Positions 6,195-31,158 of a DNA stretch of 34,926 nt are shown here, piece after piece. The number at the start of each line of letters is the position of its first letter. Within the stretch, counting starts at the first letter, position 1. Source of the DNA: an uncultured Bacteroidales bacterium (GTDB lineage: Bacteria; Bacteroidota; Bacteroidia; Bacteroidales; UBA4417); NCBI GenBank assembly GCA_903878265.1, contig CAIRHD010000028.1:1-34926 (forward strand). Reading direction: 5' to 3'. A program made the position numbers and the translations under genes. The notes beneath the pieces were generated by a model. It was not told the DNA's origin. It was given only the letters and a program-made list of their open reading frames with translations, and did not search any database.

Positions 6195-6716
6195 ATGTCG
6201 AACTACAAGGAAAAACTTTTAAAAGTAAATACTTTTATTTTTGATTACGATGGAGTCCTTTCCGATGGATCATTGCTATTGAACAGTGAAGGAGATGCGT
6301 TGCGTACCGCGAATGTGAAGGATGGATACGCCCTGCAACTTGCCAAAAAGAAAAACTACAGGGTTGCCGTCATTTCCGGTGGTTTTTCCGAATCGATGAA
6401 ACGCCGTTTCGAGAGTTTAAAAATCGAGGATGTTTTTCTGGGTGTTGAGAAAAAAATAGAAGTTTATAAACAGTACTTAGAAACACATAACCTGGAAAAC
6501 GAAAATGTTCTTTTTATGGGTGATGATATTCCAGATTATGAAATTATGCTCACTGTAGGCGTGCCTACCTGTCCGGCTGATGCCGCGGAAGAAATCAAGA
6601 AAGCTGCCTGCTATATTTCGCACCAATCGGGTGGGCGAGGCTGCGTTCGGGATGTGATCGAGCAAGTATTGAAAGTACAGGGAAAATGGATGAATGATGA
6701 TGCTTATCATTGGTAG
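6195..6716 (+). CDS. kdsC: HAD-family phosphatase, KdsC-like (3-deoxy-D-manno-octulosonate 8-phosphate phosphatase)
   Basis: 173 aa; HAD motif I FDYDGVLSDGS, VISGG, FMGDDIPDYEIM, CYISHQSGGRGCVRDVIE. Confidence 0.8.
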   Translation: MSNYKEKLLKVNTFIFDYDGVLSDGSLLLNSEGDALRTANVKDGYALQLAKKKNYRVAVISGGFSESMKRRFESLKIEDVFLGVEKKIEVYKQYLETHNLENENVLFMGDDIPDYEIMLTVGVPTCPADAAEEIKKAACYISHQSGGRGCVRDVIEQVLKVQGKWMNDDAYHW

Positions 6717-6798
6717 TAGTTGGATGTTGGATGTTGGATGTGCGATGTGAAAGAAGATAGAAAATAGAGATGGTAGTGGTGATTTGAATAGATAGTAT
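6709..6798 (+). repeat. C-depleted degenerate phrase repeat (TTGGATG unit) just after kdsC
   Basis: TTGGATGTTGGATGTTGGATGTGCGATGTG; only one C (6743) in 6709-6798. Confidence 0.7.
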
Positions 6799-6840
6799 CA
6801 CCTGTAACACAAATCACATTCATTTCAGAATTCTTTTAAC

Positions 6841-6917
6841 AGCCTAACAGTCAACCAATAATAGCCTAACCACCTAACAGCCTACAGCCTAACAGCCTAA
6901 CCACCTAACCTCATCCC
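6841..6917 (+). repeat. Degenerate phrase repeat (AGCCTAAC / CACCTAAC unit) directly upstream of ubiA-type gene
   Basis: AGCCTAACAGTCAACCAATAATAGCCTAACCACCTAACAGCCTACAGCCTAACAGCCTAACCACCTAACCTCATCCC, ending at ATG 6918. Confidence 0.8.
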
Positions 6918-7832
6918 ATGCGCTCCATTTTGTACATGCTTAGGATACCAAACCTGATGATTATTGCGATTACTTTCTTGCTGTTGAGGTATTTGGTTTT
7001 TGTTCCGGTATATTCTGCTTTTTCGATTGATGCGGGAATGGGTGAGGTGAATTTTCTGCTAATGGTTACTGCAACCATACTCATTGCAGCCACAGGATAT
7101 ATAAGCAACGATTATTTTGATATTGAAACCGACAGCATAAACAAGCCTGAAAAACAGCATATTGGAAAAAATATTTCATCAGGTTCGGCTATGGCCATTG
7201 CATTGGTTTTAAGTTTTTTTTCTGCTGTTCTGTCAGTAATTTTAACTTTAAATATTGAAAGCTGGATACCTGCATCCTTGTTGCTTTTCGCCCTTTTTGT
7301 TACCTGGTGGTATGCTATACTACTGAAAAAGAGTTTTTTATGGGGAAATGTTGCCGTTTCCTGTATGTCGGCTGGTACTATAGCAATGGCTTGGCTAATC
7401 GAAAAGCAATGTTCAGAGGTTCCTGAAGTTCCTTCTCAATTTATTACAAGTATAATAATTGGCATCAGCATTTTTGCATTTTTCCTTAGTCTGATGCGCG
7501 AAATAGTGAAAGATATTGAGGATATGGATGGGGATAAACTTATTGATTGTCATTCAGTTCCACTTACAAAAGGGATTCCATTCACATCCAAGCTTTTACA
7601 CACATTAACGGCACTAACTTTTTCATTTCTACTAATAGCTCAAATCGAATTGTACCAGTATTTCAGGTTTTTTACCGTAATTTGGTTGTTTATTTGTGTT
7701 GAAATACCATTAGCGTACTTCATGGTAAAACTAAACAAGGCTGAGACAAAACTGGAATTTCACAAACTAAGCTCCCTTCTTAAATGGATTATGTTAGGCG
7801 GTATGGGGTCAATCATTGCAGGACAATTTTGA
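6918..7832 (+). CDS. UbiA-family prenyltransferase (geranylgeranylglycerol-phosphate geranylgeranyltransferase-like)
   Basis: Polytopic 304-aa protein with both Asp-rich motifs: NDYFDIETDSINKPEK and REIVKDIEDMDGDK. Confidence 0.82.
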   Translation: MRSILYMLRIPNLMIIAITFLLLRYLVFVPVYSAFSIDAGMGEVNFLLMVTATILIAATGYISNDYFDIETDSINKPEKQHIGKNISSGSAMAIALVLSFFSAVLSVILTLNIESWIPASLLLFALFVTWWYAILLKKSFLWGNVAVSCMSAGTIAMAWLIEKQCSEVPEVPSQFITSIIIGISIFAFFLSLMREIVKDIEDMDGDKLIDCHSVPLTKGIPFTSKLLHTLTALTFSFLLIAQIELYQYFRFFTVIWLFICVEIPLAYFMVKLNKAETKLEFHKLSSLLKWIMLGGMGSIIAGQF

Positions 7833-7871
7833 AATTGACAAACTGTATTTTTTCAGAATTGTCGGTCTTAG

Positions 7872-8014
7872 AACTTCCATATTTCCCCACATTATCTCAT
7901 TCTCATATCTCCTAATCCTCAAATTAACTCATTACCACCTCCTCCAATCTCCAATCTCCACATCTTCACATCCCCAAATCCTTTCATTACCACATTACCA
8001 CATTATCACATTAA
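7872..8014 (+). repeat. 143-nt completely G-free intergenic tract made of short phrase repeats, upstream of maf
   Basis: No G from 7872 to 8014; contains CTCCAATCTCCAATCTCCACATC and ATTACCACATTACCACATTATCACATTA. Confidence 0.85.
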
Positions 8015-8017
8015 GCA

Positions 8018-8626
8018 ATGAACCAGGAAATTCTCCAGCATTACAACTTATTGTTAGGCTCAAAATCGCCACGCCGTCAGGAATTACTCAAAGCCTTGGG
8101 CCTTCATTACAGCCTTGTCGAATTTGATGTTGACGAAATATATCCACCCCATTTGCAAGGAGCAGAAATTGCTCGATTTCTTTGCGAACTAAAGGCCGAT
8201 GCTTACAATGCGGTACTGCTGCCCAAGGATTCGATATTGGTTACAGCCGATACCATTGTTTGGTTGGATGGGAAATATATCGGAAAACCATCAGGAAGGG
8301 AAGATGCAGTTGAAATGCTAAAGCAACTTTCGGGAAAGCAGCATTCCGTGTTTTCGGGAATCTGTTTAAAATCTTCGACGCGGAAAACTGTGTTCCATGC
8401 ACATACTTTGGTCAATTTCAGGGAACTTAAAGCTGAAGAAATTGATTATTATGTTGATCATTACAAACCTTTCGACAAAGCTGGATCGTATGGTATTCAG
8501 GATTGGATTGGTTATATCGGTATAACCGGAATTGAAGGCTGCTACTACAATGTAATGGGTTTTCCGGTCCAGATGTTTTATGAGGAGTTGGAGAAATTTA
8601 TTGCTTCGTTGCAATCCGAAGACTGA
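8018..8626 (+). CDS. maf: Maf-family nucleoside triphosphate pyrophosphatase
   Basis: LLLGSKSPRRQELLKALGL, VTADTIVWLDGKYIGKP, DKAGSYGIQDWIGYIGITGIEGCYYNVMGFPV. Confidence 0.93.
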   Translation: MNQEILQHYNLLLGSKSPRRQELLKALGLHYSLVEFDVDEIYPPHLQGAEIARFLCELKADAYNAVLLPKDSILVTADTIVWLDGKYIGKPSGREDAVEMLKQLSGKQHSVFSGICLKSSTRKTVFHAHTLVNFRELKAEEIDYYVDHYKPFDKAGSYGIQDWIGYIGITGIEGCYYNVMGFPVQMFYEELEKFIASLQSED

Positions 8627-13537: not shown

Positions 13538-13603
13538 TTGGGGTTGATGGGAAATAGATAATGGGAAATAGATAATGGAAAATGGTTGATTGGAAAAAGT
13601 TGA
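13538..13603 (+). repeat. C-free degenerate phrase repeat (GGGAAATAGATAAT unit)
   Basis: GATGGGAAATAGATAATGGGAAATAGATAATGGAAAATGG; no C from 13538 to 13603, starting 7 nt after the stop of the TolB-like gene. Confidence 0.75.
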
Positions 13604-13743
13604 CTTTTAATGGCTAATTGAGGATAGAAAATTGAAAAACAAAAAATAGACATATTTGAAAGTCAAATAAAATTCGATTTTATTCTTGTGGTTGTGTTTC
13701 ATACATTTGCATATCAAAAAGCAGTAATCCTGAGAGTAAAACC

Positions 13744-30151: not shown

Positions 30152-30271
30152 TTTCCCGGCGAATAAAAGTAGGGTGAATTTTGGGTTAAAGGTAGCTTTT
30201 TCAAAAATAGTTAATAATACTGTAGATGTGGTTGCAAATGCATCAAATGTTGATATTGTTTCTAATTTTTG

Positions 30272-30306
30272 TTCTTTTCTCCTTTCTCACCTCTCACAAT
30301 TACCCC
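30272..30306 (+). repeat. Short G-free phrase tract abutting lutA stop
   Basis: TTCTTTTCTCCTTTCTCACCTCTCACAATTACCCC; no G in 35 nt. Confidence 0.45.
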
Positions 30307-31098: not shown

Positions 31099-31158
31099 GA
31101 GTTTTTGGAGGTGGGATATTGGATGTTAGATGTTGGATGTGCAATGTGAGTTTGATTT
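31099..31158 (+). repeat. C-depleted phrase repeat (TTGGATG / TTAGATG unit), same family as 6709-6798
   Basis: GGATATTGGATGTTAGATGTTGGATGTGCAATGTGAG; only one C (31142) from 31099 to 31158. Confidence 0.7.

Follow-up and report, generated by a model that had tools for sequence, protein, structure and literature searches.

A G-free tract before maf belongs to a genome-wide class of polar intergenic tandem arrays in a Bacteroidales bacterium and its relatives

The window analyzed here is a stretch of 34,926 nucleotides from the genome of an uncultured Bacteroidales bacterium, probably from a lake (5.78 Mb in 629 contigs; G000). It contains a HAD-ubiA-maf gene cluster that is conserved in relatives. 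Between the second and the third gene of this cluster lies a long tract without a single G on the sense strand of maf. The features of the region are listed below.

6195..6716, + strand: gene for a HAD-type hydrolase (Pfam), first of the HAD-ubiA-maf cluster
6918..7832, + strand: gene for a UbiA-family prenyltransferase (Pfam PF01040, 1.7e-26), upstream of the tract
7834..7866, + strand: predicted hairpin right after the ubiA stop, by pattern not an intrinsic terminator
7872..8014, + strand: G-free array of degenerate 7-8-nt words (CATTACCA, CTCCAAT, CATTATCA), leaving the maf sense strand without G
8018..8626, + strand: maf gene (Maf-like protein family; Pfam PF02545, 8.9e-54), downstream of the tract

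A composition count of the 143-nt tract gave 53 C, 47 T, 43 A and 0 G, and 3 nt separate its end at position 8014 from the maf ATG at 8018, as the initial annotation had stated. The same annotation had described the tract as built of short near-repeats, and TRF indeed resolves tandem 7-8-nt units at 7942-7980 and 7985-8013, the periods found by this program across the window being 7, 8 and 14. The tract RNA is nearly unpaired by prediction; the exception is a single short A/U-rich stem close to the 3' end. Rfam covariance models gave no match at gathering score between 6500 and 9800, and this result and the near absence of pairing across the tract led us to reject a structured RNA or riboswitch. 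An intrinsic terminator was likewise rejected, given that no U run follows the hairpin at 7834-7866 and that the ubiA-maf gap yielded no terminator-like site. A local maf promoter was rejected too: a search of the gap for promoter-like sites directed into maf came up empty, and the -7/-33 elements of Bacteroides promoters require TTTG/TTG, for which a G-free sense strand has no place.

The window holds six further arrays, absent from the initial annotation, as follows.

6718..6798, + strand: C-free/C-poor array (GTTGGAT words), directly 3' of the HAD stop
6805..6917, + strand: G-poor array of TAACAGCC words that extends to the ubiA start
13543..13650, + strand: C-free array (ATGGGAAATAGATA), a short distance 3' of a stop codon
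23389..23477, + strand: G-free array (ACTATTTCCCAATA, 4.4 copies) at the 3' end of a minus-strand ORF, C-free in the sense strand of that gene; at 89 nt the second-longest G-free run in the window
30259..30304, + strand: G-free array adjoining the 3' end of a minus-strand gene, its sense strand C-free after the stop
31099..31155, + strand: C-free array (GTTGGAT/GTTAGAT) in a minus-strand gap, a polarity exception because it is sense-G-free near a stop

The tract before maf belongs to a class of intergenic tandem arrays spread across the genome of this bacterium and also present in its relatives, and in each array one strand is without C and the other without G. A detector of C- or G-depleted windows with 6-11-nt periodicity identified 110 periodic arrays in 628 kb of contigs taken regardless of content, compared with 15-20 in block-shuffled controls; 90 of the 110 are mostly intergenic, and both strands are represented. 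Applied to 50 kb of E. coli K-12, the detector found no array. With the tract itself as query, a DNA search of its own genome returned 43 resembling places on both strands; matches to a 70-nt G-free pattern, which overlap one another, number about 1,700 per strand. Dominant array periods are 8, 7 and 14. The arrays comprise many word families, examples on the C-free strand being GATAATGT/GATAATGC, GGTTATT, GGTGATT and GTTGGAT, and the word pair GATAATGYGATAATG was found again in 9 of 16 congeners. A survey with a generic pattern, free of C and with G at every seventh position, was positive for 41 of the order's 78 genera and for 68 of 149 genomes sampled from the phylum, some of them with multi-Mb contigs, and the genome of the window is among the richest in it. 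Genes were defined by ORF calling only, and most of the genomes used are MAGs. An assembly artifact is unlikely, given that the arrays sit between conserved genes in several MAGs and occur in the genomes with multi-Mb contigs.

One contig of the same genome ends within a long C-free GAGTAAT/GAGTAGT array (G000:C1:15057-15406, L039), suggesting that assembly from short reads breaks at such arrays, which may be part of the reason for the 629 contigs.

The abundance of these arrays also bears on how the length of the tract is to be judged. The initial annotation had put the chance of such a run at roughly 1e-14 per start position, a figure that assumes independent bases and is the wrong baseline for a genome so rich in such arrays. 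As a more suitable null we used an order-3 Markov model trained on array-masked intergenic DNA. In ten simulations of 0.7 Mb each, the longest G-free run was 55-89 nt, whereas in the 628-kb sample two G-free runs reach 143 and 145 nt, and one C-free run reaches 286 nt. The view that the tract is not background holds on this comparison as well, with 143 nt against a simulated maximum of 89 nt.

The arrays are polar with respect to neighboring genes. Counts were pooled from this genome and four congeners (G015, G014, G011 and G002) with a cut-off of 40 nt; they take in 277 kb of contigs chosen for matching the tract, and a few orthologous gaps were possibly counted in two genomes. In this set, all 44 arrays at most 40 nt from a start codon have a sense strand without G, whereas among the 59 arrays at most 40 nt from a stop codon the sense strand is without C in 45 and without G in 14 (starts versus stops, Fisher p = 4e-17). 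Several of the 14 stop-side exceptions look weakly repetitive. The bias is seen at codirectional starts (33 sense-G-free to 0) and stops (36 sense-C-free to 12), at divergent starts (11 sense-G-free to 0) and at convergent stops (9 sense-C-free to 2), and it recurs in each of the four congeners. Gaps with both kinds of array read C-free then G-free in nine cases and in the reverse order in one. Whichever way the adjacent gene is oriented, the G-rich strand points away from it in the 5' to 3' direction. An ORF-calling artifact at starts was rejected, as only three weak sense-C-free arrays overlap ORF 5' ends.

Comparison of orthologous gaps across relatives, which the initial annotation had proposed, revealed that both the length and the words of the ubiA-maf gap vary. 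In the distant relatives Nonlabens and UBA5537 the gap is 0 and 10 nt long, respectively; congeners lacking an array have 74-132 nt here, and those possessing one have 135-201 nt. In the closest relative, L079/G015, whose maf is 91% identical, a G-poor array of CACATTCC words precedes maf. Another relative (L080/G014; maf 85%) uses this vocabulary on the opposite strand (GATAATGCG), attached to the ubiA stop, and five relatives (L081-L084 and L086) have no array at the ubiA-maf gap. At the HAD-ubiA gap, the genome of the window and G015 have a layout in common, with a C-poor array after the stop and a G-poor array before the start. The words differ between the two: the after-stop array of G015 consists of GGATTGC/GGATGTC, and its G-poor array before the ubiA start is likewise made of other words. 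The two gaps compared show no change in gene order. These comparisons show the arrays of the ubiA-maf gap to be gained rapidly and to turn over within a conserved gene cluster, with position and polarity kept while the array sequence is replaced. The initial annotation had named random drift of tract composition between relatives as an observation that would speak against its functional reading. Such drift is seen in part: word content and even the strand do change, but polarity toward the adjacent gene does not.

Compared with the window, where they are short (169 and 160 nt), two gaps contain an extra ~200-250 nt in G015 (L185:12456-12854 and L185:15483-15844). The two extra stretches are similar in sequence and lie in opposite orientations (TTGAGTCCACTCCGA ... 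CACAAAG ...). They look like a dispersed MITE-like repeat that is absent from the window at these gaps.

The account we favor, and regard as reasonably probable, is that the array before maf grew by slippage and is tolerated in only one orientation by its content of start and stop codons. Arrays of this kind would be seeded and enlarged by slipped-strand mispairing, with words copied from a shared pool and with fast turnover, and selection would then filter their orientation through coding punctuation. Close to a start codon, an array would be tolerated only with the G-less strand in the mRNA, because ATG, GTG and TTG all contain G and the leader would otherwise be crowded with decoy starts. 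Close to a stop codon, the C-less mRNA strand would be favored because it is dense in TGA, TAG and TAA. Across 159 arrays (10.1 kb), C-free strands contain 1269 start triplets (ATG/GTG/TTG) and G-free strands 43, and the corresponding numbers of stop triplets are 945 and 362. For the start half of this filter, the agreement with the data is strong. The stop half is less secure, because the bias there is weaker and the sense-G-free exceptions on the stop side showed no enrichment of stop codons (p=0.71). For maf, we infer that the outcome is a long leader, co-transcribed with ubiA inside the conserved cluster, without start codons and unstructured by prediction; such an unstructured leader would be a plausible by-product of the array. 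Slippage alone leaves two things unexplained, namely that the words are always without C or without G and that the same words recur at unrelated loci.

Among the other explanations, post-transcriptional control through leader words bound by an S1-, Csp- or Csr-like protein, as MacGregor proposed for TAACTGA repeats (PMC4679880), would fit arrays that adjoin start codons and has a precedent in the TAACTGA arrays of Beggiatoaceae and Flexibacter litoralis, which share this location and direction. We nevertheless consider such control unlikely, since words are not conserved at orthologous sites and belong to many families, several relatives have no array at maf, and the arrays at stops are polar as well.

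The initial annotation had offered two readings of the tract, an unstructured leader for maf or a Rho-dependent terminator or insulator after ubiA. The first agrees with the nearly unpaired RNA and with the uniform sense-G-free state of arrays at starts. According to the second, C-rich, G-free RNA made after ubiA would load Rho, and transcription would end before maf. The composition of the tract (C 37%, no G) is ideal for loading and its RNA is unstructured by prediction, but the distribution of the arrays is the reverse of what this reading predicts: those with a G-free sense strand avoid stops (14 versus 45), are scarce at convergent stops (2 versus 9), where terminators would be expected, and are found at divergent starts (11 to 0), with nothing upstream that would need a terminator. 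On this distribution we reject Rho as a general explanation of the array class. At maf itself, the tract lies inside a conserved cluster, in which a strong terminator would be polar, in a gap that otherwise measures 0-132 nt, and the array of L080 has the opposite, non-Rho orientation. We therefore regard Rho-dependent termination at this site as quite improbable.

Very little likelihood attaches to general compositional drift, by which gaps would be G-poor before starts and C-poor after stops and the arrays would form the extreme tail. Array-free gaps are mildly skewed in the same direction (C.179 and G.118 before starts; G.185 and C.163 after stops), and a general compositional force may thus contribute to the skew. 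However, the Markov null disfavors drift as the source of the arrays, the skew being far too weak for runs of 143-286 nt, and drift yields no 7-8-nt periodicity. Most improbable of all is end-directed synthesis, in which both ends of an intergenic break would receive a C-free, telomere-like 3' extension before being joined, leaving arrays as scars; if true, it would explain the outward G-rich strand at both gene ends in every gap type and the C-free-then-G-free order, but arrays adjoin genes rather than lying at random within gaps, and gene order is the same at the two gaps compared.

Taken together, slippage under a punctuation filter provides a testable account of the growth and turnover of intergenic DNA in Bacteroidota. 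It also advises caution, in that striking G-free leaders in this phylum are not automatically regulatory.

Several known systems resemble these arrays in part. Like rut sites, the tract would yield a C-rich, G-poor RNA that is unstructured by prediction; unlike terminator rut sites, the arrays are located at starts and stops in a manner opposite to the expectation for terminators. The short tandemly repeated repetitive (STRR) sequences of cyanobacteria are also dispersed intergenic heptamer arrays, with different words and in a different phylum. TAACTGA arrays were reported just 5' of start codons in Beggiatoaceae, Cyanobacteria and a few Bacteroidetes; of the 14 in Flexibacter litoralis, 12 point forward, and one set directly follows a stop codon in reverse orientation (MacGregor 2015, PMC4679880). 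The Bacteroidales arrays share with them a short period, a location just upstream of starts and one preferred direction. The TAACTGA repeats, however, consist of a single conserved word in which both C and G occur, mostly in 2-6 copies, and are not G-free, whereas the Bacteroidales arrays are longer and made of many C- or G-free words; TAACTGA is not present among the G-free words of the maf tract.

The closest description is that of intergenic 7-nt tandem arrays, GGGAATC in Xanthomonas and GGGGA(C/T)T in Nostoc, which occur on both strands (Rehm et al. 2015, PMC4692102). In the 50 bp upstream of ORFs the G-rich strand of these arrays is the antisense strand, whereas within 50 bp of stops it is the sense strand, and the arrays lie nearer to the 5' neighboring ORF, on average 28 versus 160 nt in xanthomonads (PMC4692102). 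Array polarity has so far been described only in these two unrelated bacterial groups. The Bacteroidales arrays are likewise dispersed, mostly intergenic, built of ~7-nt units and of the same polarity, but they belong to another phylum, comprise many degenerate word families and have a period of 8 besides 7. They also turn over between relatives, whereas increased stability was reported for the heptamers, which were discussed as quadruplex formers (PMC4692102). Here, the C-free strand of the maf tract has no quadruplex motif (four or more GGG runs), and four GGG runs are present in only 5 of 159 arrays. The 61 arrays without any GGG are still polar (19 to 0 at starts and 18 to 9 at stops), and we therefore reject G-quadruplexes as the cause of polarity. 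Polarity in arrays that are mostly unable to form quadruplexes removes the requirement for these structures, and leaves strand composition, start and stop codon content and the mode of DNA synthesis as candidates.
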